Assembly (NCBI GenBank): GCA_016795205.1 | Contig: JAEUHZ010000028.1 | Location: 124,001 to 188,000 of the forward strand | Direction of reading: 5' to 3' | Source: Planctomycetota bacterium | GTDB lineage: Bacteria > Planctomycetota > UBA1135 > GCA-002686595 | DNA: 64,000 nucleotides | In this document: positions 6,685 through 27,365 of the stretch, piece after piece | Position numbering within the stretch: position 1 is the first letter of the stretch | Layout of the letters: each line of letters opens with the position of its first letter | Notes under the pieces: generated by a model | Databases searched by the model: none | Told to the model about the DNA's origin: nothing | Seen by the model: only the letters and a program-made list of their open reading frames with translations | Made by a program: the position numbers and the translations under genes

Positions 6685-6694
6685 CGCTTTCCGG

Positions 6695-7941: not shown

Positions 7942-7993
7942 ACGGGACTCGAACGCACCCGGTCGGCGCTCGGCGCTTAGACTCGCCGGCGTC

Positions 7994-9367: not shown

Positions 9368-9460
9368 GCGCCGCGCGGCGCATGCGCTGATCCCCGGCGC
9401 GCGCGCCCCACGGCGCAGCGCGAGCCCCATGGCCCAAAGGTGCGTCCCTCTGGCGCTCGA

Positions 9461-10351: not shown

Positions 10352-13300
10352 GGTGAGAGGCGCACCCGCACGACCTCCATGCGCCCGGCACCCAGCGACA
10401 ACCCGACCGTCCGGGCCGTCGTCGTGAGCATCGTGAGCGGGAGCCCCAGGGCGTCGATGCGCTCGGCGCCGAAGGGCTCGCGCGCGAAGACGAGCTCGAC
10501 GTTGCACGGCTCGCCGCGCGTCTCGATGAGCCGCAGGTCGACGCAGCCCTTCGGCCCGGCCTCGATGGACAGCGGCACGAGCCCAGCCGCCGGGCCCAGC
10601 GTGCGCCGGCCATCGCGCTCGACGCGCGCGATGCGCACGAGCGGCTCACGGGGCGCGCCGGTCCGGCCCGGGTCGTCGAACGCCACGCGCAGTGGCTCGT
10701 GCGCCGCCTCGTGCGCCGCGCCATCCAGCCCGGCCGCCCGCCAACCGCCCGTGCGCCCCAGCACGCGGAACGACGCAGCACGCGCGGCGGCGGCGCCCGA
10801 CTCGGCCAGCAGGAGCTCGAACGCGCGCTCGTTCCAGCGGAACGCGAGCGAGCCATCGGCGAAGAGCGCCAGCGTCGCGCCGCCGTCGCTGGCCGCAGCC
10901 CAGCCGTCGAGCGGCCGCAGCGTCTCGGGCGCTGGCTGGAGCGGCACCGCTCCGAAAGGCACGGCGGCCAGCGCGCTGGCCGTGGCGCGCGCCAGCGGCA
11001 AGCGCAGGTAGACGTCCCCGCCGCGATCGAGGAGCTCGACGCGCGCGCGTACCTCGAGTCCCGCGGCACCACCCGTCACGCGCACCAGGGTCTCGACGCG
11101 CGCGCGCGGCGACTTGCGCACCACGCGCACGGCGGCGCGCAGCGGGCCGCGCTCCACGTACTCGATCGACTCGAGCTCGCCCAGCGGCTCGGACGCGCCG
11201 TTCGCCGCAACCCACACGAGCTGCTCGCCACCGTCGCGCAGCAGCTCGACCTCGCGCCCGTCGGCCAGCGCCACGAGCCGCGCGATGCGACCGGTCTTCG
11301 GATCGAGGCCGACCTCCAGGTCGTCGCTGCGCATCGTCCACCCGGCGAGCCGCACGCGCGCCGGCGCGCGCAGCTCGGCGAGCTCGTCGCGGCGCACGCG
11401 CAGCGCGGCCGGACCCGCGCCGCTCGAGGCCAGCTCCACGAGCACGCCCCCGGAGGCCGCGCGCTGCGCGGGCAGGTCGCCGGCCGCGCCGGCCACGCGC
11501 AGCGCCGCGTCCCCGAACTCGAGCAGCGCGCGGCGCGGCCAGGGCAAGGGATCCAGGAGGGCGAGCGGCACACCCGGGCCCGCGGGCGGCAGGGCGGCGC
11601 GCAAGCGCGCAAGGCGCTCCTGCGCCGCGGCGCGGGCGCGCGCTTCCACCTCACGCGCCGCGGCGGCCGCTGCGGCGGGCACTGCTTGCGCCGCCGCCCT
11701 GAACAGTGCGGCGCGCGCCAGGGGCGCGTGCTCGCCGGGCGCGGCGCCGCCATCCAGCGTCGAGAGCGCCTCGACCGCCGCCGCGCCGAGGATCGCGCGC
11801 TCAGCGGCGCGCACGGCCGCCAGGGCTTCGAGCTCGGCGCGCAGCGTCGCGCGTTCGAGCGCCGGAAGCGCCGCGGGCTCGAAGCGCAGGGCGCGATCCG
11901 CGCGCGCCGCGGCGACCTCGCGCAACGCGACCCAGGCGAGGTCCGGCGCGGCCGGGGCGGCCGACAGCTCGGCCACCAACGCCAGTGTCTCGCGCGCCGC
12001 TCGCGGCGCGACGTCGGCCTGGACCAGGAGCGGCGCGCGCCCGGCCGGCGCGGAGGCCGCTGCGGTCCACGGCCGCCAAAACACCGGGTCGAACCGCAGC
12101 GGGCCGTCCGCGCGGATCGCCGGGGCGAGCGCCAGCACCTGGGTCCCGCCCGCCTCCCAGCGCGCGACGGGATTCCCGGGACGGCGCGGGGCGGACTCCA
12201 GCAGCGCGACCGCGATGCCCGCCGACTCCATGACGGGCGGGAGCAGGTGGATGCGCGCGACCTCGGCGTCGACGCGGGCCAGCACGCTCGGTGCACCGAC
12301 GAGCCGCGCGAGCTCGAGCTGGTCCGCGGCGACCCGTCGCGCCAAGAGGTCCGCACCCAGACGCGCGCTCGAGGCCGCGTCGAGGATCGTCGCGTACGGC
12401 GTCCAGGTGCCCGCGGCCACGCGCGCGCGCAGCCGCTCGAACGCGGCCGGGTCGCTCGCGGCGAGGCGCGCGATCGACTGCGCCTCGCCGCCAGCGACGG
12501 GCAGATCCTCGGGCAGGAAGCCGGGGCGCAGCACGGCCGCGAGGTCCGCGTCCCCGCCGTCGAACGTCGCCGCCAGCTCGATGCGCGCGGACTTGCGCCC
12601 GCGCGCCGCGTCGGCCTGCAGCGCGAGCCCGGCGGCGAGCTGGGTGCGCGCCGTGGCGAGATCGCGCGTGAGCAGCGCGTCGAACAGCGGACGGTCGGCG
12701 TCCGGGTCCGCGGCCTCGGCACCGAAGCTCGCTCCGGCGCGCCGGTTGGCGAGATAGAGACGCAGCGCGGCGCGATCCTCGTCGGCGAGCCCCTCGACCG
12801 ACTCGGCTGCGCGCGCCAGCCATCGCGCCCGGAAGCGCGGATCCGCGGCGCCGTCACGGCGCCACAGGCTGGTCACGGCCAACACCGCGAGTCGGGGATC
12901 GTCGGGCAGGAGCAGCGCGGCCAGGCTCGCCGGCGACGCGACGTCGACGGACAGCAGCACGGGGACGGGGGCCAGGCCCTCGGAGGGCGCGCGCGCCGGG
13001 ACGACCAGGGGCTCGAAGGTGCGGGATCCGTCGACGGCGGCCAACCCCAAGCGCGTCTCGAAAGGCTCTCCCGCCAGGTTCGCGACCGAGAGCCACAGCT
13101 CGTAGAAGCGGCCACCCTCGAGCGGATCGAGCCCCACGCGCTGTCCGCGCGCCAAGAAGGCGGCGCGCCCATCGGTCGCGAAACGCAGCGGCACGCACGG
13201 CCCGGTCCAGCTCAAGCCACGCGGCAGCACGGCGGCCGCGAGCGGATCCGGACCGCGTTCGGCCGCGCGCAGTCCAGCGAGGTCCGCAGCGGCCCAGGGA

Positions 13301-13863
13301 TCGGCCACGTCCCCGCGCACGGCGACGTGGCCGGGTGCGAACTCGGCCTGGGCGCCGAGGACCACCGCTCCGGCCGCGCTCTCGGGCGCTTCCAGACGGC
13401 GGAGCCCGCCCTGGAGCTCGTCGTGGAACACTTCGATCCGCGTGCCGTCCGCGCGCTCGACACGCACGTCGTCGACGGCGAAGACGATCTGGGCACCGCG
13501 CTCGCCGCGCGCGACGAGTTCGAAACCCACGATCCGGGCGCCGGAGGACAGCGGCGCGCGAACCTCGATCCACCGGCCGCTCGCGGCCAGCGGCGGCGCG
13601 CCCGTGCGGCGCCCGTCGTCATGGACGGCTTCGACGCCGCGCGCACCGGCGCCGGGCACCTCGCTGCGCGCGAGGTAGACGAGCACGTCACCGGGCTCGG
13701 TGCGGAACGGCGCGGCCGGGATGGCGACGGCCGGGTCCGCGACCTGCGCGAGGGGCGGCGCGGCCAGGAACGCCAGCAGGCGACCGGCCGGCGCGGGATC
13801 CTGGGCGGCGCGCGCGCTGGCGCACAGGACCAGGAGCAGGAAGCACGGGAGAGCGCGCCGCAT
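10348..13863 (-). CDS. Secreted GH38-like (alpha-mannosidase-like) protein, probably degenerate
   Basis: An 1171-residue exported protein (signal peptide RRALPCFLLLVLCASARA). The C-terminal half resembles GH38 beta-sandwich domains: LLDPLPWPRRALLEF, then DDLEVGLDPKTGRIARLV and IEYVERGPLRAAVRVV. The middle (about residues 400-560) keeps the GH38 helical outline (AFERLRARVAAGTW, then LPPVMESAGI), but the catalytic HxHxD and PDxFG motifs are not recognisable. The N-terminal 330 residues look like a jelly-roll or carbohydrate-binding module. Known GH38 enzymes trim alpha-mannosides; this one may bind without cleaving. Very Ala/Arg-rich. The methyltransferase gene follows with a 4-bp overlap. Confidence 0.5.
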   Translation of the reverse strand: MRRALPCFLLLVLCASARAAQDPAPAGRLLAFLAAPPLAQVADPAVAIPAAPFRTEPGDVLVYLARSEVPGAGARGVEAVHDDGRRTGAPPLAASGRWIEVRAPLSSGARIVGFELVARGERGAQIVFAVDDVRVERADGTRIEVFHDELQGGLRRLEAPESAAGAVVLGAQAEFAPGHVAVRGDVADPWAAADLAGLRAAERGPDPLAAAVLPRGLSWTGPCVPLRFATDGRAAFLARGQRVGLDPLEGGRFYELWLSVANLAGEPFETRLGLAAVDGSRTFEPLVVPARAPSEGLAPVPVLLSVDVASPASLAALLLPDDPRLAVLAVTSLWRRDGAADPRFRARWLARAAESVEGLADEDRAALRLYLANRRAGASFGAEAADPDADRPLFDALLTRDLATARTQLAAGLALQADAARGRKSARIELAATFDGGDADLAAVLRPGFLPEDLPVAGGEAQSIARLAASDPAAFERLRARVAAGTWTPYATILDAASSARLGADLLARRVAADQLELARLVGAPSVLARVDAEVARIHLLPPVMESAGIAVALLESAPRRPGNPVARWEAGGTQVLALAPAIRADGPLRFDPVFWRPWTAAASAPAGRAPLLVQADVAPRAARETLALVAELSAAPAAPDLAWVALREVAAARADRALRFEPAALPALERATLRAELEALAAVRAAERAILGAAAVEALSTLDGGAAPGEHAPLARAALFRAAAQAVPAAAAAAAREVEARARAAAQERLARLRAALPPAGPGVPLALLDPLPWPRRALLEFGDAALRVAGAAGDLPAQRAASGGVLVELASSGAGPAALRVRRDELAELRAPARVRLAGWTMRSDDLEVGLDPKTGRIARLVALADGREVELLRDGGEQLVWVAANGASEPLGELESIEYVERGPLRAAVRVVRKSPRARVETLVRVTGGAAGLEVRARVELLDRGGDVYLRLPLARATASALAAVPFGAVPLQPAPETLRPLDGWAAASDGGATLALFADGSLAFRWNERAFELLLAESGAAAARAASFRVLGRTGGWRAAGLDGAAHEAAHEPLRVAFDDPGRTGAPREPLVRIARVERDGRRTLGPAAGLVPLSIEAGPKGCVDLRLIETRGEPCNVELVFAREPFGAERIDALGLPLTMLTTTARTVGLSLGAGRMEVVRVRLSP

Positions 13864-13928
13864 GGGGAGCGGGGAAGTCTACTCCCTGCCCGTGGGGCCA
13901 GCCCGCCCCTACGCTCGCGCTCCACGCC

Positions 13929-14693
13929 ATGGACACCGAGGACTGGGACGATCACGACCTCTACGAGCGCAGCGTGCAGGACGCCGAGGCCTCCGTGCAG
14001 CTCCTCGAGCGACTCCACGGCGGATCGCCGCGCGTCCTGGGCGAGGACTTCGCCGGCACGGCGGCCCTGTCACGGGCCTGGGTCGCGCGCGGCCGGGAGC
14101 GGCGAGCGTACGCGGTCGACCGCGACCCGCGCCTGCTGGCTCGCGCGGGCCACCCGCAGGTCGCCGCGCACGTCCTCGACGTGCGCTCGGCCGAGCTCGC
14201 GCGGCTCGCGCCCTGCGACGTCGTGCACGCCGGGAACTTCTCGATCGGCGAGCTGGGCTCGCGCGCCGAGGTCCTCGGCTGGGCGCGCACGGCGCGGGCG
14301 CGGCTCGCGCCGGGCGGCCTGCTCGCCGTGGACACGTACGCGGGCGAGTCCGCCTGGCGCCGCGGCGCGCTCGAGCGGCGGCGTGCCCTGGGCGGCGGGA
14401 TCGAGCTGCGTTGGACCTGGGAGCAGCGGCGCGCCGACCCGCTCACGGCGCGCGTCGAGAATGCGCTGTCCTTCCGCGTGCTGCGCGATGGAGAGGTCGT
14501 GCAAGACCGCCCCGAGGCCTTCGTCTACGGCTGGCGACTGTGGTCGCCCGCCGAGCTCACCGACGCGCTGGCCGAGGCCGGCTTCCGCGACGTGGAGCCC
14601 GTGACCTGCGTCGACGGCTCCGTCGCGACGGGCGCCAGCCAGGCAACGGGGTGTGTCGTTCTGCTCGCCGCGCGCGACGGAAGCCTCGGGTAG
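13929..14693 (+). CDS. SAM-dependent methyltransferase (class I)
   Basis: A 254-residue protein whose start MDTEDWDDHDLYERSVQD and VLGEDFAGTAALS correspond to the N-terminal helix and glycine-rich SAM loop of small class I methyltransferases. AYAVDRDP is the acidic motif, GNFSIGEL the motif IV region, and LAPGGLLAVDTYAG the post-IV strand. The substrate is unknown. It is divergent from the GH38-like gene with a 65-bp spacer. The 214 bp that follow contain the foldback element described separately. Confidence 0.82.
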   Translation: MDTEDWDDHDLYERSVQDAEASVQLLERLHGGSPRVLGEDFAGTAALSRAWVARGRERRAYAVDRDPRLLARAGHPQVAAHVLDVRSAELARLAPCDVVHAGNFSIGELGSRAEVLGWARTARARLAPGGLLAVDTYAGESAWRRGALERRRALGGGIELRWTWEQRRADPLTARVENALSFRVLRDGEVVQDRPEAFVYGWRLWSPAELTDALAEAGFRDVEPVTCVDGSVATGASQATGCVVLLAARDGSLG

Positions 14694-14738
14694 CCTGGAC
14701 GCGGCCTGTCGGGCCCGCCACTCATGATCCGTCACCGC

Positions 14739-14888
14739 GAAGCTGACCCCGTTCGCTGGACCTCGCTGGCTGCAAGTCCGTCAACGACGCCGACCTGGAG
14801 CGGGCCAGCGGCTCGGCCCGCGGCCTTCGCACAAGTGCTTAGATGACAGAGGTTTCACGATCCAGGCCCAGCGAAGTGGGTCAGCTTC
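14739..14888. mobile_element. 150-bp foldback/MITE-like element (copy A)
   Basis: The ends are 25-nt inverted repeats that match at 22 positions: 14739-14763 starts GAAGCTGACCCCGTTCGCTG, and 14864-14888 read on the minus strand starts GAAGCTGACCCACTTCGCTG. A central hairpin GCGGGCC-8 nt-GGCCCGC sits at 14800-14821, so the whole element can fold back. It encodes nothing recognisable and part of it is more AT-rich than its surroundings. It ends 19 bp before the first start codon of the cytochrome operon, so it probably contains or displaces that operon's promoter. The AAGCTGAC-CCGTT core recurs in copy B at 40806-40959. Confidence 0.65.
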
Positions 14889-14907
14889 CGGACCTCCGGA
14901 ACCGAGA

Positions 14908-17187
14908 TTGCCGGGCGTGGCCGTGATTTGGCTCCTGCCCCCCGCCCTGCTCCTGGCCTTGGGCCTCGTCTTGGCCGCGCTGGGCGTGCGGCGGGCGGAG
15001 CGGCGGCGGTTGCAGGGCCTGCTCGACGAGCGGCAGCGCGCGCGGGCGCTCGGCAGCGATCGGGCGCGGCTCCAGCATCCGCACATCGACCTGTCGCGCT
15101 GCATCGGCTGCGGAACCTGCGTCGCGGCGTGCCCGGAGGAGGGCGTGCTCGAGCTCGTCCACGGGCAGGCGGTCGTCGTCCACGGTGCGCGCTGCGTGGG
15201 GCACGGGCGGTGCGCGGCCGAGTGCCCGGTCGGCGCGATCGCGCTGACCCTGGGCGATGTCCGCGAGCGGCGCGATCTGCCCGTCCTGACCGAGGAGCGC
15301 GAGTCTCCGCACGTTCCGGGACTGTTCCTGGCCGGCGAGGTGACGGGGTACGCGCTCGTGCGCACGGCGATCGGCCACGGCACTGCGGCCGCAGACGCGG
15401 CAGCGCGGCGTGCGCGGCAGGCCGGCGCGCCCTCGCTCGTGCGGCCGGCGCGCGATGCGGCCGGGCGCGGCGGCGTGGCGCTGGCCGACGAGCCGCCGGT
15501 GCTCGACCTCGTCGTCGTCGGCGCCGGTCCGGCTGGGATCGCCTGCTCACTGCGCGCCAAGGAGCTGGGCCTCGCTTTCACCACGCTGGAGCAGGACGAG
15601 CTGGGCGGAACCGTCGCCAAGTACCCGCGGCGCAAGCTCGTGATGACCCAGCCGGTCGATCTGCCGCTCGCCGGACGCCTGTCGCGCACGAGCTACACGA
15701 AGGAGGAGCTCGTCGCGCTGTGGGAGCGCCTGGCGCGCGAGCACGCTCTGCCGATCCGCCACGGACAGGTCTTCCGCCGCGTCGAGCGGCTGGCGGACGG
15801 CACGCTGCGCGTCCACACGCTGGACGGGGCGGTCGACGCGCGCTCCGTGGTCCTGGCGCTGGGACGGCGCGGCACGCCGCGGCGGCTGGGCGTCCCGGGC
15901 GAGGAACTCCCCAAGGTGGCCTACTCGCTGCTCGACGCGCACGGCTACCAGGGGCGGCGCATCCTGGTCGTGGGTGGCGGCGACAGCGCGGTGGAAGCCG
16001 CGCTGGGCCTCGCGGAGCAGCCCGGCAACCAGGTCGTGATCTCGTACCGCAAGGAGGCCTTCTTCCGCCTCAAGTCCAGGAACGAAGCGCGCTTGGCGGA
16101 GGCGCTGCGCTCGGGCGCGCTGGGCGCGCTGTTCTCGAGCGAGGTCCTGGCGATCCGCCCCGACGCCGTCGACGTGCGCCTGGCCTCGGGCGGGGTCGAG
16201 ACGCTCGCGAACGACGAGGTGTTCGTGTTCGCGGGCGGCACGCCGCCGACCGAGGTGCTCGAGGCCTCGGGCGTGTCATTCGATCCCGGGGAGCACGCCG
16301 CGCCCCCCTCGCTCTCGGAGCAGGGCACCGGGCTCGGTCCGGCGCTCGGCGCGGCGTTCGTCCTGGCGGCGCTCGTGCTGGCCTGGGTGTTCGTCCACCA
16401 GGACTACTACCGCCTCCCGGCGGTCGAGCGCCCGCACCATCCGGCGCACCCCCGGCTCGCGCCGACCGGCGTGGTCGGGCTGTGGTGTGGCGTGGCCGCG
16501 GCGTTGTGCGTGCTGGCAAACCTGGCTTACCTCGCGCGGCGCTCGCAGCGCTTTCCGTGGATCCCCGGCTCGCTGCGTGCCTGGATGACGTCGCACGTCG
16601 CCACCGGGCTCGGGGCGCTGCTCCTGGTGCTCGTCCACGGCGCCATGGATCCACGCCCCACGCACGGGGGGCGCGCGGCCTGGGCCCTGTGCTTCCTGGT
16701 CTTGACGGGCGCGATCGGGCGCTACCTCTACAGCTTCGTGCCGCGCGCGGCGAACGGCCGCGAGCTGGAGCTCGAGGAAGCGCGCACGCAGGTCGTGGCG
16801 CTCTCCTCGGAATGGGATCGCGGCCGCGGCGGGTTTTCCGAGCGGATCCGCGCCGAGGTCGACCGCACGAGCGCACAGGCGCGCTGGACCGGGCCGCTCG
16901 TGGTGCGCCTCGCTGGCCTCTTCCGCGAGCGTCATGCCGCGCGCCGCCGTCTCGCGGCGCTGCGCGCTCAAGCCCTGCGGGAAGGTGTCGCGCCACCCGA
17001 GGTCGAGCGCCTGATCGACCTCGCGCGACGAGCGCAGCGCGCGGCCCTGCTCGCCGACCACCACGAGGAGCTGCGCGGGATCCTGGCATCCTGGCGCTAC
17101 TTCCACCGCTGGGTGGCGCTGTTCTTCGTGCTGGTGCTGGCTTGGCACGTGCTCCTCGCTCTGCGCTATGCGAGGCTCTTTCCGTGA
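14908..17187 (+). CDS. Inner-membrane 4Fe-4S / FAD-NAD(P) oxidoreductase with di-heme-b-like membrane domain
   Basis: A 759-residue multidomain protein: an N-terminal membrane helix (about 5-28), two 4Fe-4S motifs (C65-x2-C68-x2-C71-x3-C75; C96-x2-H99-x2-C102-x3-C106, with His replacing one Cys), a thioredoxin-reductase-like flavin domain with GAGPAG near 205 and GGGDSA at 356-361, then about five membrane helices (480-498, 522-543, 563-581, 587-607, 733-755). Two helices carry H-x13-H (H563/H577, H733/H747), a spacing used to bind two b hemes. It could pass electrons between cytoplasmic NAD(P)H or ferredoxin and periplasmic cytochromes. No CxxC redox disulfide is seen. The start is TTG 14908; GTG 14917 or 14923 are alternatives. 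It overlaps the next gene (GTGA). Confidence 0.85.
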   Translation: MPGVAVIWLLPPALLLALGLVLAALGVRRAERRRLQGLLDERQRARALGSDRARLQHPHIDLSRCIGCGTCVAACPEEGVLELVHGQAVVVHGARCVGHGRCAAECPVGAIALTLGDVRERRDLPVLTEERESPHVPGLFLAGEVTGYALVRTAIGHGTAAADAAARRARQAGAPSLVRPARDAAGRGGVALADEPPVLDLVVVGAGPAGIACSLRAKELGLAFTTLEQDELGGTVAKYPRRKLVMTQPVDLPLAGRLSRTSYTKEELVALWERLAREHALPIRHGQVFRRVERLADGTLRVHTLDGAVDARSVVLALGRRGTPRRLGVPGEELPKVAYSLLDAHGYQGRRILVVGGGDSAVEAALGLAEQPGNQVVISYRKEAFFRLKSRNEARLAEALRSGALGALFSSEVLAIRPDAVDVRLASGGVETLANDEVFVFAGGTPPTEVLEASGVSFDPGEHAAPPSLSEQGTGLGPALGAAFVLAALVLAWVFVHQDYYRLPAVERPHHPAHPRLAPTGVVGLWCGVAAALCVLANLAYLARRSQRFPWIPGSLRAWMTSHVATGLGALLLVLVHGAMDPRPTHGGRAAWALCFLVLTGAIGRYLYSFVPRAANGRELELEEARTQVVALSSEWDRGRGGFSERIRAEVDRTSAQARWTGPLVVRLAGLFRERHAARRRLAALRAQALREGVAPPEVERLIDLARRAQRAALLADHHEELRGILASWRYFHRWVALFFVLVLAWHVLLALRYARLFP

Positions 17188-19478
17188 AGCGTGGCGCGGC
17201 GGGGCTGTGGCTGGGCGCGATCTCGGCCACGATCGTGTTCCTGCTCGTGCTCCTCGATCCGAGCGCCTCGTCACCCGGGCCGATCAGCGCGGTCCACGCG
17301 CTGTCGGCCGGGATCGACGAGCACGACTGCGCTGCGTGTCACGGCTCGGCGCGGTCGGACCTGCGGACGGCCTGCGCGGCCTGCCATGCCGAGGTGGAGG
17401 TCGACGTGCAGCGTGGCCGCGGCTTCCATGGCCAGCTCGCCGACGGCGGGACGTGCGGTCGCTGTCACGCGGAGCACCACGGCGCGGGCTTCGAGCTGGC
17501 CAGCGCCGGCGCGTTCGCCCTGGCCGGCGTGCCCGACCGCGCCGCGTACGACCACGCTGGCCTCGACTTCCGGCTCGGCGGCGATCACGCCGCGGGTCTC
17601 GCCTGCAGCCGGTGTCACGAGCACGCCGACGCGCCGCTGCTCGCCTCGGGAGCGCGGCGCTTTCGGGGTCTCTCCCAGGAGTGCGCCAGTTGCCACGACG
17701 ATCCGCATGCCGGGAAGCTCCCCGACTGCCGCGCCTGCCATGGCGAGACGGAGCCGTTCGCCCTGGCGGCAGCGTTCGCGCACCCCGCCACGTTCGCGCT
17801 GGAAGGCGCACATGCGCGCGCTCGCTGTGTGGACTGCCACCCGCGGGGCGGCGAGTTCGCGATCGAGGCTGGCGGTGGCGCGGAAGCGACCCGCGCGGCG
17901 CGCGACTGCGCCGCGTGCCACGCCTCGCCGCACGCCGCGCCGTTCGTCGCTGCGCTCGCGGCGCGACTCTCCGTCGCGGCCGGCGCCTCGTGCGCGAGCT
18001 GCCACCCGGTCGAGAGCGGACCGTTCCGCGAGCCGCGCGCGCTGACGGCGGCCGAACACGCGGCGACGGGCTTCGCGCTCGACCCGCCGCACGCGCGCGC
18101 GACCTGCGCCGACTGCCACCCGCGGATCGACGCGCCCGCCGCGCACACCGGCGCGTTCGCCGACTATCGCGCCGCGCACCCGGGTCGCGCGGCGGACGAT
18201 TGCGCTGCCTGCCACGCCGATCCGCACGGTGGGCAGTTCGCGCAGGGCGCGACGGGTGTCACGGACTGCCTCGCCTGCCACGAGCGCCTGCGCTTCGACC
18301 CGGTCGTGTTCGGCGCTCGCGAGCACGCGCGCACCGGTTTCGCTCTCGACGGCGCGCACCAGAGCTCGAGCTGTCACGCCTGCCACGAGCGGCGCGGTGA
18401 CGCGCCACGGGCCTTCCGAGGGACCAACGCACAGTGCGCCGCCTGTCACGCCGACGTGCACGCGGGTGCCTTTGCACGGGGCGCGGCGAGCCCCGCGGAC
18501 CGCGAGCGGGCCCAGGACTGCGCGGCCTGCCACACGACGACCTCGTTCGCCCGCGGGCAGGACTTCGAGCACGCGCGCTGGACCGGCTTCGCGCTCCAGG
18601 GCGAGCACTCCGGGCTCGCGTGCGAGGCCTGTCATCCGCGGCGCGCGGTTCGCGACGCGCACGGCCGCGCCTTCGGCCTCGTGGCCGAAGCCTTCCCGGG
18701 CCCGACGGACGACTGCGCCACGTGTCACATCGACGCCCATGGCGGGTACTTCGCGCGCGCGCCTTCCGCGCCGGCCTGTGCTGCTTGTCACGACCCGCAC
18801 GGGTTCGAGGCGGCGGCCGTCGGCTTCGACCATGCGCGCTGGACAGGGTTCCCGCTCGTCGGCGCGCACGCGCGCAGCGCCTGTGCGGCCTGCCACGCGC
18901 AGCGCGCGGACGGGACACGGACGTTGGTCCATTCCGGCGCACGCGGCCCGCAGGACTGCGCCGCGTGCCACGCCGATCCGCACGCCGGGGCCTTCGCGGC
19001 GCGCGGCGCAGGGACGGAGTGCGCCTCCTGCCACTCCAGCGAGTCCTTCGCGCCCGCGCTGCCCGGGAGCTTCGATCACGGGTCGTGGACCGGCTTCGCG
19101 CTGGGCGGCGCGCACGCCGCCGCGCTGTGCACGAGCTGCCACCCGCGGCTCGCGGCGCGCGACGCGACCGGACGCAGCTTCGCCCGCGCCGCCGGAGCGA
19201 GTTGCTCCGACTGCCACGCCGATCCGCACGCCGCGCAGTTCGCGCGCGGCGGCGCGACCGACTGCGCCGCGTGCCACGCCACCGGGCCGGACTTCCTCGC
19301 GCTCGTGTTCGATCACCAGCGCGACGCGCGCTTCGCGCTCGACAGCGTGCACGCGCGGCTCTCCTGCTCCGCCTGCCACGTTCCCTGGCCGCTCCCCGGC
19401 GGCGGGAGCGCGGTGCGCTACAAGCCGCTGGGGACGGCCTGCGGCGACTGCCACGACCCGCGCGGGGGACAGCGATGA
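17184..19478 (+). CDS. 26-heme c-type cytochrome (periplasmic)
   Basis: A 764-residue protein with an N-terminal signal or anchor helix (WLGAISATIVFLLVLL) and 26 CxxCH heme-attachment motifs by my count. After four N-terminal hemes come seven repeats of about 75-95 residues, each with three hemes, then one last heme. The repeat outline is CxxCHADPHxGxFA, CxxCH, then FDHxxxTGFxLxGAH and CxxCHPR. The spaced DH/EH/GAH histidines are probable distal heme ligands, so most hemes should be bis-His. Such a chain would act as a long periplasmic electron wire or capacitor. It starts with a GTG overlapping the previous stop and ends overlapping the beta-barrel gene. Confidence 0.93.
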   Translation: MKRGAAGLWLGAISATIVFLLVLLDPSASSPGPISAVHALSAGIDEHDCAACHGSARSDLRTACAACHAEVEVDVQRGRGFHGQLADGGTCGRCHAEHHGAGFELASAGAFALAGVPDRAAYDHAGLDFRLGGDHAAGLACSRCHEHADAPLLASGARRFRGLSQECASCHDDPHAGKLPDCRACHGETEPFALAAAFAHPATFALEGAHARARCVDCHPRGGEFAIEAGGGAEATRAARDCAACHASPHAAPFVAALAARLSVAAGASCASCHPVESGPFREPRALTAAEHAATGFALDPPHARATCADCHPRIDAPAAHTGAFADYRAAHPGRAADDCAACHADPHGGQFAQGATGVTDCLACHERLRFDPVVFGAREHARTGFALDGAHQSSSCHACHERRGDAPRAFRGTNAQCAACHADVHAGAFARGAASPADRERAQDCAACHTTTSFARGQDFEHARWTGFALQGEHSGLACEACHPRRAVRDAHGRAFGLVAEAFPGPTDDCATCHIDAHGGYFARAPSAPACAACHDPHGFEAAAVGFDHARWTGFPLVGAHARSACAACHAQRADGTRTLVHSGARGPQDCAACHADPHAGAFAARGAGTECASCHSSESFAPALPGSFDHGSWTGFALGGAHAAALCTSCHPRLAARDATGRSFARAAGASCSDCHADPHAAQFARGGATDCAACHATGPDFLALVFDHQRDARFALDSVHARLSCSACHVPWPLPGGGSAVRYKPLGTACGDCHDPRGGQR

Positions 19479-21112
19479 GACGCCTCGCGCTCACGGCCCT
19501 CGCGCTGGGGCTCCTGGCGCTGGGCGCGCGCGCCGAGGACGTGCGGATCGAGCTTTCCGTGACCAGCGTCGCGGGCTCGGCCGTGTACGTCGACCGCGGC
19601 ACCGCCGGCGGCCTCGAGACCGGTGACCGGGTCGAGTTCCGCCTGCCGAACGGCGCGCTGGCGACGGGCGTCGTGCGCTCGGCGGGCCCGAACAGCGCGC
19701 GCATCGAGCTCGACCCCGGCTCGCTCTCGCCGCGGGTCGGTGCGACGGGGACCGCGACCGTGCCCGACACGCGCCCGGGTGCGCAGGAGCCGCGCACGCC
19801 CGCGGGGCCGCCGGCCGAGCGTCCGCCCTGGACGCACCCGCCGGAGACTTGGTCCGAAGACCGGCCGTTGCTCGCGCCAGCCTTCAGCGTGGCCCCCGAG
19901 GACCGCGCGCCACGCTGGCGCGGCCGCGCCTGGCTGCGCTTCGATGGCACGTTCGACCGCGAGCGTGAGCGCGAGTACTCGCTCTTGGCCGTGGGCGCCG
20001 ACGCGACGCTCGAAAACCCGTTCGGCGACGGCGGCTCGCTGCGGATCGGCGCCGAGGGGTTCGCACGCCAGAGCGACCTGGAGGGCGATCTCTTCGAGTA
20101 CGACGACGCGCGCCTGCGCCTGGACCGATTGGTCTACCAGGTCGGCGGCACCGAGGACCGCCCGCACCGCTTCCTCGTCGGCCGCTTCCTCCAGGACAGC
20201 TTCCCGGAGTTGGGCGTGCTCGACGGCGCCGAGTGGAGCGTGCGCACGCGCGGCGGGACCGTGATCGGCGCCTCGCTGGGCTACAGCCCCGAGCCGTTCG
20301 CCGATTTCGACTCGTTCGAGGACCTCCAAGCCGCCGTTTCCGTGCGGCAGTTGTTCGCGTCGGCCGACGTGGGGCTCGCGTACCAGAACACCTGGCACGA
20401 GGGAACCCAGGACCGGAACCTCTTCGTTCTCGACGCCGGCGCGCGTCCGACGGACCGGTTGTCGCTGCGCGCCTCGGCCTGGATCGACGTGTACGGCGGC
20501 TCCGACACGCTCAAGGACGACGGCGTGGAGCTGACCGAGGGCCGCCTCTCCGGCACGTACACGGCCGACGGAGGCCACGGGGTCTCCGCCTTCGTCCTGC
20601 AACGCCGCATCCCCGAGCTCCTGCGCGACGAGTTCCTGATGCGACGCGCGGACGACGTGCAGAACCTGGTGGTCGACCGCGCGGGGATCAACGCCTGGAC
20701 CCGCGCCGGACGCGACGTGCGGCTCGACGCGCGCGTCGAAGGCTGGGACGCTGGCGAGGACGACGGCTGGTCGGCCGAGGTCGGCGGCGGGCTCGACGGC
20801 GCGTTGGGCGGCCAGAGTTCGCTCTACGGTGCGCTCTCGTGGGCGCAGGGGGCGTACAGCTCGGGTCCTGGAGCTCGCATCGACGCCCGCCGCACGTTCG
20901 GCACCACGAGCGCCGGCCTGGGCTGGCGCGCGGCCTGGTACGAGCACGACGACTTCGGCGGCGACGAGGACGAGCTGGCGCAGCACGCCGTCTACGGCAG
21001 CCTGGACCTACCGCTGTGGGGCCGCTGCGACCTGTCGCTCACCGCGGACCGCTCGTTCGGCGACGGCCTCGACGCCTGGGCCGCCGGCATCCTCCTGCAG
21101 GCACGCTTCTGA
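19475..21112 (+). CDS. Outer-membrane beta-barrel protein of the cytochrome operon (porin-like)
   Basis: A 545-residue protein with a signal peptide (RRLALTALALGLLALGARAE), a small N-terminal beta domain (about 22-95, VTSVAGSAVYVDRGTAGGLETG-like fold), a Pro-rich linker (about 97-125) and a long C-terminal region of alternating polar and hydrophobic strands. It ends in Phe (LLQARF), the usual signal for outer-membrane insertion. No CxxCH is present. Its place between two multiheme cytochromes resembles MtrB/PioB-type porins that sheath a cytochrome through the outer membrane, though I cannot show sequence homology by eye. The ATG overlaps the stop of the 26-heme gene. Confidence 0.75.
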   Translation: MRRLALTALALGLLALGARAEDVRIELSVTSVAGSAVYVDRGTAGGLETGDRVEFRLPNGALATGVVRSAGPNSARIELDPGSLSPRVGATGTATVPDTRPGAQEPRTPAGPPAERPPWTHPPETWSEDRPLLAPAFSVAPEDRAPRWRGRAWLRFDGTFDREREREYSLLAVGADATLENPFGDGGSLRIGAEGFARQSDLEGDLFEYDDARLRLDRLVYQVGGTEDRPHRFLVGRFLQDSFPELGVLDGAEWSVRTRGGTVIGASLGYSPEPFADFDSFEDLQAAVSVRQLFASADVGLAYQNTWHEGTQDRNLFVLDAGARPTDRLSLRASAWIDVYGGSDTLKDDGVELTEGRLSGTYTADGGHGVSAFVLQRRIPELLRDEFLMRRADDVQNLVVDRAGINAWTRAGRDVRLDARVEGWDAGEDDGWSAEVGGGLDGALGGQSSLYGALSWAQGAYSSGPGARIDARRTFGTTSAGLGWRAAWYEHDDFGGDEDELAQHAVYGSLDLPLWGRCDLSLTADRSFGDGLDAWAAGILLQARF

Positions 21113-21120
21113 GGCACGCC

Positions 21121-22359
21121 ATGAGATCGCGCACCATTCTGGGACTCCAGCGCACGCACGCCGCGGTCGCGGCGCTGGCGCTGGCGCTCTTGTGCCTGGC
21201 CTGCGCCGCAGGCAGCGCCGGCGGAGCGCAGAGCGTCGCGCGCCAGGCGTGGCGGAAGGCCCGCGGTCCGGTCGTCCCCCACGACACGTTCCCGCGCGAC
21301 TGCTCGCTGTGCCACGTGGGTTCGTCGTGGAACGAGATCCGCGACGACTTCGCCTTCGACCACGCGGCCGAGACGGGCGTGCCGCTCGCCGGCGCGCACC
21401 AGGCCGCCGAGTGCTTGCGGTGTCACAACGACCGGGGACCCGTCGCGGTGTTCGCGGCGCGCGGCTGCGGCGGCTGCCACGAGGACGTCCACCTGGGACG
21501 TCTGGGAAACGCCTGCACGGTGTGCCACGACGAGGCGGCGGGCGACTGGCGGCCAGGCGGCCCGGTTGCCGAGCACGCCAAGACGCGTTTCCCGCTGGTC
21601 GGGGCGCATGCCTCGACCGCCTGCTGGGCCTGCCACCCCGGCGCGCAGGTGGGCAACTTCGTCCAGGCCAGCACGCGCTGCGTCGACTGCCACGCGGCGG
21701 ACCTGGCAGGCGCGAACGAGCCCGACCATGCGCGCCAGGGCTGGACCGACAACTGCGAGCGCTGTCACCTGCCGACGAGCTGGTCGCAGGCCGGTTTCGA
21801 GCACGGGTTCTTCCCGCTGCAGGGCGGGCACCGTGGGCTCGCCTGCTCGGCCTGCCACGTGGGGCGCGACTTCGGGGGCCTCGATCCCACCTGCTACGCC
21901 TGCCACCAGGACGACTACCGCGGCGCGCGCGACCACGTGACGCAGAACTTCCCCACGGACTGCACGCTGTGCCACACGATCGCGCGCTGGGAAGGCGCGC
22001 GCTTCGACCACCGCGGCATCGTCTCGGGCTGTGCCGCCTGCCACCTCGACGACTACCAGGCGGCGCGCCGGCCCGACCACGCGGGTAACGGGTTCCCGAC
22101 CTCCTGCGAGCAGTGCCACACGACGAAGACCTGGGGCGACGGCCAGTTCTCGCACCCGCAGTTCCCGATCACGAGCGGCGCGCATCGCAACCTGACGTGC
22201 CAGCAATGCCATCCCGTGCCAGGCGCCTTCCGCCAGTTCTCCTGCACGGACTGCCACGAGCATCGCCAGCGCGAGACCGACGACGATCACGACCGCGTGC
22301 CCGGCTACGTCTACAAGAGCTCGGCCTGCTACGCTTGCCACCCGGACGGGAACGACTGA
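21121..22359 (+). CDS. 15-heme c-type cytochrome, probably exported to outer membrane or surface
   Basis: A 412-residue protein with a signal sequence (AALALALLCLACAAG; the LAC could be an imperfect lipobox) and 15 CxxCH motifs by count. Repeating units FDHxxxTGVPLxGAH-CxxCH and FPTxCxxCHTTKTW, plus the C-terminal VPGYVYKSSACYACHPDG, match the cytochrome c3/c7-like family found in bacteria with extracellular electron transfer. As a lipoprotein or secreted partner it could be the outer terminal of the conduit. GAGG lies 6 bases before ATG 21121, and the gene is 8 bp after the barrel gene. Confidence 0.92.
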   Translation: MRSRTILGLQRTHAAVAALALALLCLACAAGSAGGAQSVARQAWRKARGPVVPHDTFPRDCSLCHVGSSWNEIRDDFAFDHAAETGVPLAGAHQAAECLRCHNDRGPVAVFAARGCGGCHEDVHLGRLGNACTVCHDEAAGDWRPGGPVAEHAKTRFPLVGAHASTACWACHPGAQVGNFVQASTRCVDCHAADLAGANEPDHARQGWTDNCERCHLPTSWSQAGFEHGFFPLQGGHRGLACSACHVGRDFGGLDPTCYACHQDDYRGARDHVTQNFPTDCTLCHTIARWEGARFDHRGIVSGCAACHLDDYQAARRPDHAGNGFPTSCEQCHTTKTWGDGQFSHPQFPITSGAHRNLTCQQCHPVPGAFRQFSCTDCHEHRQRETDDDHDRVPGYVYKSSACYACHPDGND

Positions 22360-22406
22360 CGTCGCGCGCGGGCCGGAGCGCGGCGCGCACCCGTGCGCGG
22401 CTTCCG

Positions 22407-23777
22407 ATGCAGCACCTGTCGCGACTCACGCTCCTCGGCCTGGTGGCGCTGGGCTTGCTCGTGGTGGCCCTGGTCGCGGCGTTGGTCCTGCGCTGGACGG
22501 GCGCGGCCGCGCGCGCCGACGAGCTCGCGCGCCTCGCCACACAGCGCCGCCCGGCGCTCCCGGCCGACCTGCCGGAGCCGACAGACCCGCGGCCCGAGGC
22601 CACGGGTTGGTTCGCGGAGCTCGTCGCGGCGCGCATCCGCTGGACGCCCGAGGAGCTCGCCGCGCCGGAGTCGTACGCCCGTCTGCGGGCCAGGGCGCGG
22701 GCCACAGAGCTGGCTGCGGAGGCCGAGGAGGCCTTCGCCGCGCTCGAGGGTTGCGCCGGCACGGGCGCGAGCGAGGCCCTGCAACGCGTGGTCGAGGTGC
22801 TCGCAGCGCGCGACGGGATCGCCGGGGAGCCGCCCTGCGGCGCGGAGGCAGCGCGGCTCCTCGCGCTGGGAACGCGCGCGCGGCTCGACGTCGCGCGGCG
22901 CGCGCGCGAGTACGGGGCGGTGTCACCACGCGTCGTGAACGGTGCGTTGGAACGCGACGGCGCCGTGCTGCCGCAGCTCCCGATCCTGCAGGCGCTCGAG
23001 CTCGCCGATGCCGTGTCGCTCGAGCTGGCCCGCGCGATCTGGTCGGAGCAACCCGCGCTCGTGCCCGAGCTGCTGCTCGCAGCGCTCGACGTGGCGCGCG
23101 TCCTGGGCAGCGCGCCCTTCCTGGTGGCCGCGCTGGGCGCGTCCGAGGTCGAGTCGCGCCTGCTGGCGGCGCTCGAGTTCGCGCTGTCCGCGGTGCCCGA
23201 GGACCTGGACCTCTCCAAGATCGAGGACGAGCTCGCGGCACTGCGGCCCCGCGAGCGGCTCGTGCGCGCCATGGAGGGCGAGCGCGCGCTCGGGAACCGC
23301 GCCTTCGAGCTGCTGAGGCAGGGCGCGCGGCCGACCTGGGTCGACGGCGGATCCTGGCTGCCGATTGCCCTGATCGCAGCGCACGACCAGGCCGCGTTCC
23401 TGCGCGCCTGGCGCGAGCAGATCGGGCGCGCCGGCTGCGCCGCGTACCAGCGCGAGCCGCCGGCTCGGCCGGGCTGGTCGGACCGTCAACTCGCGCCGAT
23501 CACGGCGCTCCTCGTGCGCACGGACTTCGCGGGCGCGGTCGACGCGCTCGAGGCCCGCCTGGCGCTGGCGCGCGCCGCGCTCGTCGCGCGCCGCGGCGGG
23601 GCGCAGGCGCTCCTGGAGCACGTCGCCCGCAGCGCGGACCCCTACGACGGCCGTCCGCTGCGCGTGGGCTTCGCCGACTCGGGCGTGGTCGTGCTGTGGT
23701 CCGTGGGAGCCGACGGGCGGGACGACGGCGGGCTCGACGAGGCGCGCGACGTCGTGTGGCGCTTCAAGCCGCGCTGA
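22407..23777 (+). CDS. Membrane-anchored hypothetical protein at end of cytochrome operon
   Basis: A 456-residue protein with one N-terminal membrane helix (LTLLGLVALGLLVVALVAAL, about 7-28) and a long alpha-helical, Ala/Leu/Glu-rich exported domain. The C-terminus has DPYDGRPLRVGF followed by WSVGADGRDDGG and DVVWRF, a tail I recognise from uncharacterised planctomycete exported proteins. There is no heme motif. It follows the 15-heme gene by 47 bp without an obvious ribosome binding site, so membership in the operon is likely but not certain. The 3' end overlaps the convergent BtuF-like gene by 14 bp. Confidence 0.7.
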   Translation: MQHLSRLTLLGLVALGLLVVALVAALVLRWTGAAARADELARLATQRRPALPADLPEPTDPRPEATGWFAELVAARIRWTPEELAAPESYARLRARARATELAAEAEEAFAALEGCAGTGASEALQRVVEVLAARDGIAGEPPCGAEAARLLALGTRARLDVARRAREYGAVSPRVVNGALERDGAVLPQLPILQALELADAVSLELARAIWSEQPALVPELLLAALDVARVLGSAPFLVAALGASEVESRLLAALEFALSAVPEDLDLSKIEDELAALRPRERLVRAMEGERALGNRAFELLRQGARPTWVDGGSWLPIALIAAHDQAAFLRAWREQIGRAGCAAYQREPPARPGWSDRQLAPITALLVRTDFAGAVDALEARLALARAALVARRGGAQALLEHVARSADPYDGRPLRVGFADSGVVVLWSVGADGRDDGGLDEARDVVWRFKPR

Positions 23778-24534
23778 CCCCCGAGCGCGCGGCTTCGATG
23801 CGCGAGAGCGCGTACTCGATGCCCGCCGGGGTACGCGAGCCGTGCCAGGACAGGTACTCGCCATCGACGATCTCGAAGCGGTGCCGCGCCAGGCCGGTGA
23901 GCGCGGCCAGCTCGTCCGCGTGATGCTCTTGGAACGGGAACGGCTCCGTGCACAGCAGCACGGCGTCGGGCGCGGCTGCGGCCAGCTCCTGCGCGCTGAT
24001 CTCCGGGTAGCGCTGGGCATGCCGCGCGAACACGTTCTCGCCTCCGGAGAGCTCGAGCAGGGCGCTGGCATAGGTGTCGCCGTTGACCGCCATGAACGGC
24101 TTGCGCCAGATCAAGTAGGCGAAGCGGACGCGCGGCTTGCCGTCGGCCCGCAGACGCGCCTCGACGATACGCCGCTCGATGTCGGCTGCCACGGACGCTC
24201 CGGCCTCGGGGCTCCCGATCGAATCGGCGATGGAGCGCACCATCGCGGCCGTCTCAGCCGCGTCGCGCGGCATCGAGACGTGGCAACGGATCCCGGCCTC
24301 ACGCAGCAGCTCGGCATCCTCGCGACGGTTCTCCTCCTCGTTCATCAGGACCAGATCGGGGGCGAGCTCGACGATGCGGCGCACGTCGGGCGTCTTCGTG
24401 CCGCCGACCTTCTCGACGCGCGCGACGCCTTCGGCGGGGTGCACGCACCACTCCGTGACGCCGACCAGGTCGGCGCCCCGGCCCAGGGCGAAGACGAGCT
24501 CGGTGAGGCTCGGGCACAGGGAGACGATGCGCAT
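23764..24534 (-). CDS. BtuF-like cobalamin/metal-chelate-binding protein (helical backbone receptor)
   Basis: A 256-residue protein with the two-lobed periplasmic-binding fold of BtuF/FhuD: start MRIVSLCPSLTELVFALG, VGVTEWCVHP, the VGGTKTPDVRRIVELAPDLVL segment and AVNGDTYASALLELSGG. Such proteins deliver vitamin B12 or siderophores to ABC importers. It lacks a signal peptide, like a known group of cytosol-predicted cobalamin-binding proteins, and no permease lies nearby. The B12-dependent mutase and MeaB genes 10-16 kb away make cobalamin a sensible ligand, but this is inference. Confidence 0.8.
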   Translation of the reverse strand: MRIVSLCPSLTELVFALGRGADLVGVTEWCVHPAEGVARVEKVGGTKTPDVRRIVELAPDLVLMNEEENRREDAELLREAGIRCHVSMPRDAAETAAMVRSIADSIGSPEAGASVAADIERRIVEARLRADGKPRVRFAYLIWRKPFMAVNGDTYASALLELSGGENVFARHAQRYPEISAQELAAAAPDAVLLCTEPFPFQEHHADELAALTGLARHRFEIVDGEYLSWHGSRTPAGIEYALSRIEAARSGVSAA

Positions 24535-24573
24535 CGTGCGGAGAATGTCCCTCCAGAGTACCCTGCGTCGCGC

Positions 24574-25110
24574 ATGAGCGCCTTCGATGCAGCGACGGAG
24601 ATCGATGCCTTTCAGGCGGGAGCCGCGGCCGTGCTCGCGCTCCTCGGCGGAGATGCTCACGCGCTCGCGGCGCGCAACCCGGCGGTCTCGGGCTGGTCCG
24701 CGCTGGAGCACGCGAGCCACGTGACGCTCGCCAACGAGCTCGTGCTGCGCAACCTCCAGAACCTGGCCCGGGGTGCGGGCCTGCTCGTGGTGGCCGAGGC
24801 CGAGCAGGACCCGCGCGCGCTGGCGATCCTGGAGCGCGGCGTGCTGCCGCGCGGGGAGGCGCGCTCCCCGCGCATGGTCGTGCCGCCCTCCGACATCGAC
24901 CTCGCGACCGCGCGCGAGTGGGCCGAGCGCTTCGTGGCCGATTTGCAGGCGTTTCGCCGGGGATTCACCGCGCGAGGAGGCCCGCCCCGCCTGTTCGTCC
25001 CCCACCAGATCCTGGGCCCGCTGAGCCTCGCGGAATGGGCGCGCTTCGGCGCCGTCCACACGCGCCACCACCTCGCGATCGCGCGCGAGGCGCTGGCGGC
25101 GACGGTCTGA
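24574..25110 (+). CDS. DinB family protein
   Basis: A 178-residue helical protein. SGWSALEHASHVTLANELVLRNL gives the first conserved His helix, and the C-terminal FGAVHTRHHLAIAREAL gives the second (HTxHH), as in DinB/YfiT four-helix metalloproteins that bind a metal through three His and often act as thiol transferases. The function is not known here. It is divergent from the BtuF-like gene (39-bp spacer). Confidence 0.82.
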   Translation: MSAFDAATEIDAFQAGAAAVLALLGGDAHALAARNPAVSGWSALEHASHVTLANELVLRNLQNLARGAGLLVVAEAEQDPRALAILERGVLPRGEARSPRMVVPPSDIDLATAREWAERFVADLQAFRRGFTARGGPPRLFVPHQILGPLSLAEWARFGAVHTRHHLAIAREALAATV

Positions 25111-25307: not shown

Positions 25308-27365
25308 GTGACGGAGTGGCTGGCGCGCTTCGACCCCGCTGGCGCCACAACCGCCGCACGCTGTGCTGCCGACGGGCCCGCAGCGGACGGCCGCGCGCGC
25401 TTCGAGCGGGCGTGCGCGCGGGCGCTGCTCGGACGCGACGACGAGGCGCGCGCAGATCTCCAGGCTTGCGCAGCCGAGCTCGGTGACGCCGCGCACGTCG
25501 AGCTCGCCCATCTCGACGTGCGCGGGCGCGGCGGGGTCGAGGCGGCCTGCTCCGTGCTCGAAGCCGTGCTCGCCCGCGTCGAGCGCGGGAGCGCGCTCGA
25601 GGCTCGCACCCTCCACATCCTGGGTCTCGCCCGTGGGAAGCTGCGGCGCACGGCTTTGGCCACCGACGCGCTGCTGAGCGCGGCGGATCGCTACCGCGCC
25701 CTGGGCGACCTCGGGGCGTTGGCGCAGGTGCAGGACACGCTGGGATCGCTGTTCGCGGCGCAGGGACGCCTCGACTTCGCGTCAGCGCACTATGCGGCGT
25801 CCATGGTCGGGAAGCTGCGCGCCGGCGACGTGGCCGGGATCGCCGTGACGCTCGGCAACCTCGGTCGGCTCCACCTGCGCGCCGGACGGTTCGAGGAGGC
25901 GCTCGACTGCTTCCGCCTCGATCTCGAGCTCGCCACGAGCCTCGCGGACGAGCGTGGGATGGCGCGCATGCACGAGGACCTCGGCCGCGCCCACATGGGG
26001 CTCGAACGCTGGGACGAGGCGCGGGCGGAGCTCCAACGTGCGCTGGCGATCGCCGAGCCGCGCCAGCATCTCGACCTCGTGTTCTTCGCGCGGCACGACT
26101 TGGCGCTCGTCGAGCTCGAGGCTGGGCGCGCCGACGAGGCGCGGGAGCACGTGGCGCGCGCCGAGGCCGCCCTTTCCGAGCCGCGCGACGCGTACCTCGA
26201 GGCCCTGCTCGTCGCCGTGCGCGGGCGCCTGCTGGCCGTGGCGGGCGACCCGGCGGCGAGCGCGCTGCTCGAGGACGCCTGCGAGCGCTTCGGGCGCCTC
26301 GAGTTGCCCGATCACGAGATCCCCGCCCGGCTCGCGCTGGCCGAGGCGCGGCTCTCCTCCGACGAGCGCGTCGCGGCCGAGCGCGACCTCGCGCGCGCGC
26401 TGGAGCTGGCCCGGCTCGACGGCCAGGCCCGCTGGCTGCCCCCGGTGCGCGAGGCCATGGCGCGGCTCTCGGTGGTCGAGAGCCTGGTCGACGAGCGCGG
26501 GCGCCTGGCCGCACCCGGAGAGAAACCCGCGGGAGCTGACGGCTACGTGCTGCTCGCGCAACTGGGCAAGGGAGCGTTCGGCGAAGTCTGGCGGGCCTAT
26601 GACCCGCAGCGCGCGCGGGTCGTGGCGTTGAAGCGGCTCGACCTCGAGCGCCTGTACGACCCCGAGAAGCGTGCGCGCCGCGTGGCCTCGGCGCGCACCG
26701 AGCTGGCCGCGGCGTCCGCCCTGCGCCACCCGGGGATTGCACGCGTCTTCGCCTTCGGCGTCGACGGCGCGCAGGGCGCCTACGTCGTGCAGGAGCTCAT
26801 CGACGGCGAGAGCCTGCGCGCCCGGATGTCCAGGCGGACACCCGACGCTCCCGGCCGCGTGCTGGACACCGCCGGCCGCATGGCCCGCGCGCTCCAGACC
26901 CTGCACTCCGCCGGCGTCGTGCACCGCGACCTGAAGCCCGAGAACGTGATCCTGCGCCGCACGAGCGGCGGACCGGTGCTGATCGACTTCGGCCTGGCGC
27001 TCGCGCCCGGCGGGGAGCTCGCGCCGAACGCCGTGGCCGGCACGCTCCTCTACATGGCGCCCGAGCAGGCTGCGGGCGAGGAGGTGACGGGTGCCGCCGA
27101 TCTGTACGCCTTGGGCACCGTGCTCTACGAGTGGTGGGCCGGCCGACGCCCGCTGAGCTTCAGCGGAGCGAGCTTCGAGGAGTGCGTGGAGACCCTGCGG
27201 CGCGAGACGCCGGTGTCGCTCGCCGGCCTGCGCCCCGATCTCGGAACGGAATGCACGAGCCTGGTCGACGAGCTGCTGCGCAAGGAGCCCACGAGCCGCC
27301 CCGACGTCGAAGAGGTCGCGGAACGCTGCGAGGCGCTCGCCGCGAGGCTGCTCGGCCGGGCCTGA
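25308..27365 (+). CDS. Ser/Thr protein kinase with N-terminal TPR domain
   Basis: A 685-residue protein. Residues about 30-400 are TPR-like helical repeats (ALDCFRLDLELA, EARAELQRALAIAEP). The kinase domain runs from 412 to the end: P-loop LGKGAFGEVW (419-428), VALKRL lysine near 442, catalytic H539-R-D-L-K-P-E-N, D560-F-G, and the MAPEQ activation-segment motif. Every catalytic residue is present, so it should be active. There is no membrane helix. The TPR domain precedes the kinase, the reverse of many bacterial STKs. GTG start 25308. The sigma-like gene lies 132 bp downstream on the same strand, a pairing seen with STK-linked ECF sigma factors of planctomycetes. Confidence 0.9.
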   Translation: MTEWLARFDPAGATTAARCAADGPAADGRARFERACARALLGRDDEARADLQACAAELGDAAHVELAHLDVRGRGGVEAACSVLEAVLARVERGSALEARTLHILGLARGKLRRTALATDALLSAADRYRALGDLGALAQVQDTLGSLFAAQGRLDFASAHYAASMVGKLRAGDVAGIAVTLGNLGRLHLRAGRFEEALDCFRLDLELATSLADERGMARMHEDLGRAHMGLERWDEARAELQRALAIAEPRQHLDLVFFARHDLALVELEAGRADEAREHVARAEAALSEPRDAYLEALLVAVRGRLLAVAGDPAASALLEDACERFGRLELPDHEIPARLALAEARLSSDERVAAERDLARALELARLDGQARWLPPVREAMARLSVVESLVDERGRLAAPGEKPAGADGYVLLAQLGKGAFGEVWRAYDPQRARVVALKRLDLERLYDPEKRARRVASARTELAAASALRHPGIARVFAFGVDGAQGAYVVQELIDGESLRARMSRRTPDAPGRVLDTAGRMARALQTLHSAGVVHRDLKPENVILRRTSGGPVLIDFGLALAPGGELAPNAVAGTLLYMAPEQAAGEEVTGAADLYALGTVLYEWWAGRRPLSFSGASFEECVETLRRETPVSLAGLRPDLGTECTSLVDELLRKEPTSRPDVEEVAERCEALAARLLGRA

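Follow-up and report, generated by a model that had tools for sequence, protein, structure and literature searches.

Most of what is known about extracellular electron transfer comes from Proteobacteria and Desulfobacterota, in which quinol is the inner-membrane donor. The described systems closest to the one reported here are MtrCAB/CymA of Shewanella and PioAB, which share with it an inner-membrane donor, a periplasmic multiheme cytochrome, an outer-membrane barrel and an outer cytochrome, and the Pcc cluster of Geobacter (OmbB-OmaB-OmcB), where a porin and periplasmic and outer cytochromes are likewise encoded in a single cluster. Within the PVC superphylum, a porin gene beside multiheme genes has been described in Verrucomicrobia (PMC5615132). 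In this study, we analysed a stretch of 64,000 nucleotides (the window; contig JAEUHZ010000028.1, positions 124,001 to 188,000, assembly GCA_016795205.1) from the 4.6-Mb draft genome of a Planctomycetota bacterium. It holds an operon of four genes, here called FLAV (flavin/Fe-S/b-heme membrane protein), MHC26 (26-heme cytochrome), BARREL (outer-membrane protein) and MHC15 (15-heme cytochrome). We propose, with a probability of about 0.6, that the four genes encode one trans-envelope conduit, which would be fed by NAD(P)H (or ferredoxin) and would probably run outward, for redox balancing. The conserved gene order, the candidate ligand histidines, the domains of FLAV, the barrel fold, a lipobox-like Cys in MHC15 and a nearby heme-c maturation gene (ResB) all support the conduit.

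Gene organization and distribution

All genes of the cluster lie on the forward strand. FLAV (14908-17187, 759 aa) starts with TTG, and an alternative GTG start at 14923 fits the starts of its orthologues better. Its stop overlaps the start of MHC26 (17184-19478) by 4 bp (GTGA), MHC26 overlaps BARREL (19475-21112) in the same way (ATGA), and MHC15 (21121-22359) follows after a gap of 8 bp. A fifth gene (22407-23777), encoding a putative signal-anchored protein, comes 47 bp further on. These coordinates confirmed to the base the original prediction of five same-strand genes joined by 4-bp overlaps or short gaps; the idea of a five-gene system was not borne out, as conservation covers four genes. 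The fifth protein gave no significant Pfam or NCBIfam match and could be assigned to no family in them, and among the loci compared it had homologues only in L074 and L075. It is therefore at best a lineage-specific add-on, probably outside the conserved conduit, and was set aside as a component.

Relatives were searched for with an MHC15 alignment, and the best 80 of 175 were kept; almost all of these came from Planctomycetota, together with one metagenome-assembled genome (MAG) labelled Kiritimatiellales and a few records that carried no label beyond 'bacterium'. The order FLAV, MHC26, BARREL, MHC15 was found in 49 of the 80 genome-scan loci, the remainder being mostly cut by contig ends or of a split form. 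Among 89 loci with MHC26, BARREL and MHC15 all on one strand, 74 had the order of the window and 13 had MHC26-MHC15-BARREL, and the 4-bp overlap of MHC26 with BARREL was kept in 42 of the 74. The order thus recurs in dozens of Planctomycetota genomes, so the four-gene arrangement is not due to chance, and the earlier worry that no genome might conserve it can be put aside. In the split form FLAV consists of two genes: the membrane gene stands mostly directly before MHC26, and the Fe-S/FAD gene is elsewhere in the cluster. The Kiritimatiellales MAG (L145) carries this form, through horizontal transfer or a mislabelled bin; in the phylum of that match, the MHC15 profile hit 2 of 289 genomes.

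BARREL was found in 28 of 294 sampled genomes of the window's phylum, and a relative of MHC15 in 81 of 392 sampled Planctomycetota genomes (66 of 266 genera), though the weakest of these 81 matches may be other multiheme proteins. The nearest relative (L074) is a MAG from Lac Pavin, with 57-80% identity per protein over the best segment. Strains Poly30 and Pla86, whose genomes are complete, each have two full-length copies of FLAV.

Predicted properties of the four proteins

FLAV had been described as a flavin/Fe-S/b-heme inner-membrane protein, and Pfam matches to Pyr_redox_3 (1.2e-40; 140 bits, cut-off 30) and Fer4_10 (1.1e-10), together with four invariant histidines, supported this. We aligned 24 sequences of 47-57% identity (alignment A3) and, separately, 12 sequences including split genes (A5). 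After an N-terminal transmembrane (TM) helix, the putative dicluster ferredoxin-like domain (residues 58-112; 15079-15243) has invariant Cys 65/68/71/75 and 96/102/106 in A3. For the second cluster, invariant Cys occupied three of the four usual positions in all 24 sequences, and this cluster may be 3Fe-4S or differently ligated. The next domain (residues 198-462; 15499-16293) is predicted to have a thioredoxin reductase (TrxR) fold binding FAD and NAD(P)H, on the basis of Pyr_redox_3 and of solved relatives that include YpdA and TrxR-type ferredoxin-NADP reductases (FNR). A redox-active CxxC was sought in residues 200-470 and none was found; FLAV was therefore excluded as a thioredoxin reductase proper, whose CxxC in the NAD(P) domain it lacks.

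The transmembrane domain of FLAV (16333-17184) carries His 563/577 and 733/747, invariant in 24/24 (A3) and 12/12 (A5) sequences. Each of two transmembrane helices holds a pair of them spaced by 14 residues, the pattern of two b hemes. Its members matched Ferric_reduct (PF01794; 12/12), DUF4405 (11/12) and b561 (6/12), all weakly, and a two-heme fold like that of ferric reductases or b561 is predicted. When the PDB was searched with a profile of this domain, a weak match to cytochrome b6 was all that came up beside noise from coiled coils. Hydropathy and charge placed positive residues after TM1 and throughout the loop between TM3 and TM4, from which we infer that the FAD/Fe-S domain is cytoplasmic and that one b heme lies near each membrane face.

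The original prediction of an outer-membrane barrel ending in Phe agreed well with our model of BARREL. AlphaFold2, given 35 sequences, returned a model with a mean pLDDT of 86.4 and a pTM of 0.77, in which an N-terminal beta domain (residues ~23-96) and a Pro-rich linker precede a predicted barrel of 22 long strands (residues 147-544). Of 214 Foldseek matches, the best 50 were all outer-membrane proteins (such as ushers, OprD-type porins and AlgE), and the C-terminal Phe is present in the window protein and in 30 of 35 aligned homologues. A soluble protein, or one unrelated to porins, would have counted against the conduit; an outer-membrane fold is what was predicted. MtrB_PioB (PF11854) matched neither BARREL nor anything else in its own genome, and the BARREL profile (A1) matched no barrel in the PDB. 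A single-sequence scan of the genome contigs with BARREL found nothing, because the sequences are too divergent.

MHC26 contains exactly 26 CxxCH motifs, as had been counted before, and Cytochrome_C7 of Pfam matched it in 10 stretches. Exactly 26 non-motif His were kept in 80% or more of those sequences that have the column, a number equal to that of the hemes, and these residues are candidate distal ligands for all 26. Against solved structures, the MHC26 profile matched best 3ov0 (2.7e-12), a Geobacter dodecaheme that we take to be GSU1996, followed by MtrF (4e-10) and 6r2q_A of the MtrCAB complex (2.1e-9), and high-molecular-weight cytochrome c was also among the relatives. The heme count of the earlier description stood and its periplasmic location needs adjustment: the N-terminus is a single hydrophobic helix with no consistent cleavage site, followed directly by a conserved SPGP...H motif, and MHC26 is therefore probably anchored in the inner membrane and not freely periplasmic.

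MHC15 has exactly 15 CxxCH and, as expected of a cytochrome with a signal sequence, a hydrophobic stretch followed by a lipobox-like Cys28, which was invariant in 28/28 sequences (A2). A loose lipobox fits most orthologues, and the CLAC of the window protein does not fit strictly. MHC15 can be regarded as a lipoprotein-like cytochrome, likely located at the cell surface, with a conserved core and an extensible tail. The core (residues 1-224) has as many invariant distal His as hemes, 7 of each. In the extension, 9 distal His are well conserved for 8 hemes, a surplus suggesting that the window protein descends from a form with 16 hemes by the loss of one.

Heme numbers, the second operon copy and the host genome

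The heme numbers of both cytochromes move in steps of three, and the pattern itself is clear. Among 82 loci, the protein in the MHC26 position had 23 (37 loci), 26 (36), 29 (3), 20 (2) or 17 (1) CxxCH, with three exceptions, and division by 3 left a remainder of 2 in 79/82. The terminal cytochromes had from 7 to 46 CxxCH, with a remainder of 1 in 64/82. Since the loci are related, p-values for this pattern overstate its significance. The longest terminal proteins seen were those of L129 (9896-13399; 1168 aa, 46 CxxCH), from a Phycisphaerales MAG, and L125 (9953-13183; 1077 aa, 43 CxxCH). A 7-heme terminal protein was paired with 23 hemes in the MHC26 position in 13 of 14 loci, the fourteenth being a cut gene, and was accompanied by an 11-heme protein (~800-1200 aa of open frame) in 13 of 14.

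The host genome itself has a second copy of this short form (L054, G000:C74:8000-27900; 6076-15645), with FLAV, a 23-heme cytochrome, a barrel, a 7-heme lipoprotein-like cytochrome and an 11-heme protein of 921 aa. The last is lipoprotein-like and distantly resembles ExtM (85 bits, cut-off 800); the window operon has no member of the ExtM family. Some 3 kb upstream of the second copy is a ResB gene (C74:10775), and ResB also occurs near some other loci. Elsewhere the genome encodes four COX1-family proteins and, outside the conduit cluster, NapC-type proteins, so the same cell has other electron routes. A further open reading frame with 13 CxxCH was observed near a NapC/NirT-family match (L053, G000:C22:206000-209500).

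The flanks of the relatives' loci showed no further gene kept in most of them. The neighbours in the window appear unrelated to the conduit: a protein with a GH38 C-terminal domain (10348-13863), a Peripla_BP_2 protein (23767-24564), a DinB-like protein (24562-25107) and a TPR serine/threonine kinase (25308-27365).

Proposed electron path and alternative explanations

In the proposed conduit, cytoplasmic NAD(P)H (or reduced ferredoxin) would reduce the FAD of FLAV, and the ferredoxin-like clusters would split the electron pair; a TrxR-type FNR joined to a ferredoxin could thus turn a two-electron donor into a source of single electrons, as hemes need. The two b hemes would carry these across the inner membrane into the anchored MHC26, whose bis-His wire would cross the periplasm and enter or dock to the 22-stranded barrel, and MHC15 on the outer side would pass them to an extracellular acceptor such as a metal oxide, a humic quinone or another cell. 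We favour outward flow, since NAD(P)H is strongly reducing and the membrane potential helps electrons to move from the cytoplasm to the outside. Such flow would make the conduit a discharge route and not an energy-conserving step: surplus reductant would be discharged in organisms that also have oxidases, and no energy would be conserved at the conduit itself. The analysis shows the heme motifs with their candidate ligands, the order of the genes, the domains and, as a prediction, the barrel fold; from these we infer that the cofactors are loaded, that the proteins form a complex and that MHC15 is at the surface, along with the direction, the acceptor or substrate and the independence from quinone. 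The broader proposal, a widespread planctomycete quinone-independent conduit in which FLAV would drive electrons from NAD(P)H into an anchored, periplasm-spanning wire and barrel, its length tuned in evolution by gain or loss of three-heme modules (20-29 hemes inside, 7-46 in the terminal protein), is put forward more tentatively.

Several observations speak against the proposed conduit. The Ferric_reduct score of the window FLAV was 16.2 bits, under the Pfam cut-off of 28. The AlphaFold2 model of MHC26 was weak (pLDDT 70.7, pTM 0.35) and gave no Foldseek match, and because the model is so poor we make no claim on the shape of the wire or its insertion into the barrel. Furthermore, sending electrons outward from NAD(P)H with no coupling site would be energetically wasteful, and it is not evident why the host, which with its four COX1-family genes looks capable of oxygen respiration, would need an external acceptor.

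The donor could be a different one. b561-like proteins often handle quinones, and the transmembrane domain of FLAV is related to b561 among others; the physiological donor of the same conduit might then be quinol, acting at the b-heme domain, with the FAD/Fe-S domain feeding the quinone pool or being regulatory. This would suit split loci such as L139, in which the FAD/Fe-S gene can stand apart or on the other strand. However, most loci encode the FAD/Fe-S and heme domains in a single fused protein, and the four His and the helix layout suit straight transmembrane transfer, and we consider a quinol donor unlikely. Less probable still is an inward direction, in which the cell would draw electrons from Fe(II), from reduced minerals or from a partner. 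The host has heme-copper oxidases, the closest relative among the best 80 of 175 came from Lac Pavin, a ferruginous lake (PMC6386445), and iron-oxidation genes are reported for Planctomycetota (PMC10732223). However, the partner in the inner membrane belongs to the NAD(P)-type flavoproteins, and reducing NAD(P)+ with Fe(II) would be uphill and against the membrane potential. The least credible explanation is envelope detoxification of metals or selenite-like oxyanions, or electron storage, with the barrel as a substrate channel and no extracellular respiration. The 11-heme protein of the sister operon does distantly resemble ExtM, from the selenite/tellurite cluster of Geobacter, and Fe(III) citrate was still reduced by a mutant in the ext porin (PMC5877670). 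However, the window copy lacks an ExtM-like gene, and a chain that is ordered and anchored, with a terminal heme array that expands, suits conduction better.

If the NAD(P)H-fed conduit is real, Planctomycetota with this operon may pass electrons directly outside the cell, by a separate route that would have NAD(P)H or ferredoxin as its starting point and perhaps one continuous anchored heme wire as its path. Its presence in Poly30 and Pla86, strains with complete genomes, makes planctomycete electron exchange with the surroundings directly testable, and the three-heme stepping offers a natural series on how the length of a heme wire is set.

Comparison with known systems

We found no description of the four-gene operon in the open-access (PMC) literature. 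Annotated iron-reduction genes are reported in four Planctomycetota MAGs and may overlap with it; the text consulted there does not describe the operon (PMC10732223). The logic of porin-cytochrome systems that had been noted earlier was recovered, in that a predicted outer-membrane barrel is encoded together with inner and outer multiheme cytochromes in a conserved order; the gene set, as had also been suspected, is other than MtrCAB, because the sequence tests for MtrB, MtrA and MtrC fail and the donor differs. Compared with MtrCAB and PioAB, BARREL has 22 predicted strands instead of the 26 of MtrB, and the MtrB/PioB family does not match it. The cytochromes carry 26+15 hemes against 10+10 in MtrCAB: MHC26 scored 62 bits and MHC15 30 bits with TIGR03508 (MtrA/DmsE decaheme; cut-off 192), and with TIGR03507 (OmcA/MtrC decaheme; cut-off 209) MHC26 scored 29.6 bits and MHC15 nothing. 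A quinol dehydrogenase of the CymA/NapC type is absent from the conduit cluster, in which FLAV, an NAD(P)H-type flavocytochrome b, takes that place. Filing under MtrCAB was rejected on these features.

To our knowledge, the Pcc cluster of Geobacter has no inner-membrane oxidoreductase and has other heme numbers than the operon described here. The Verrucomicrobia clusters have another porin, predicted to have 20 or more transmembrane segments, and an 8-heme periplasmic partner (PMC5615132), in contrast to the 26-heme protein here. The Geobacter extHIJKLMNOPQS cluster is similar in its porin-like protein, cytochromes and b-type membrane module, but has a Rieske/cytochrome b core and a selenoprotein (PMC5877670); filing under this selenite/tellurite cluster was also rejected, given that ExtM is absent from the window and that the sister protein falls far below the cut-off. 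Dodecaheme c7 cytochromes of the GSU1996 type share the c7-like heme units and differ in having 12 hemes and no barrel operon. Ferric reductase/NOX-type enzymes likewise combine a cytoplasmic NAD(P)H flavin domain with two b hemes across the membrane, whereas FLAV has a flavin domain of the TrxR/FNR type with Fe-S clusters and would hand its electrons to a heme wire, not to a small substrate. As read from its sequences, the operon would work like a porin-cytochrome conduit, but with a barrel and cytochromes that fall outside the MtrB, MtrA and MtrC families and with a different donor.

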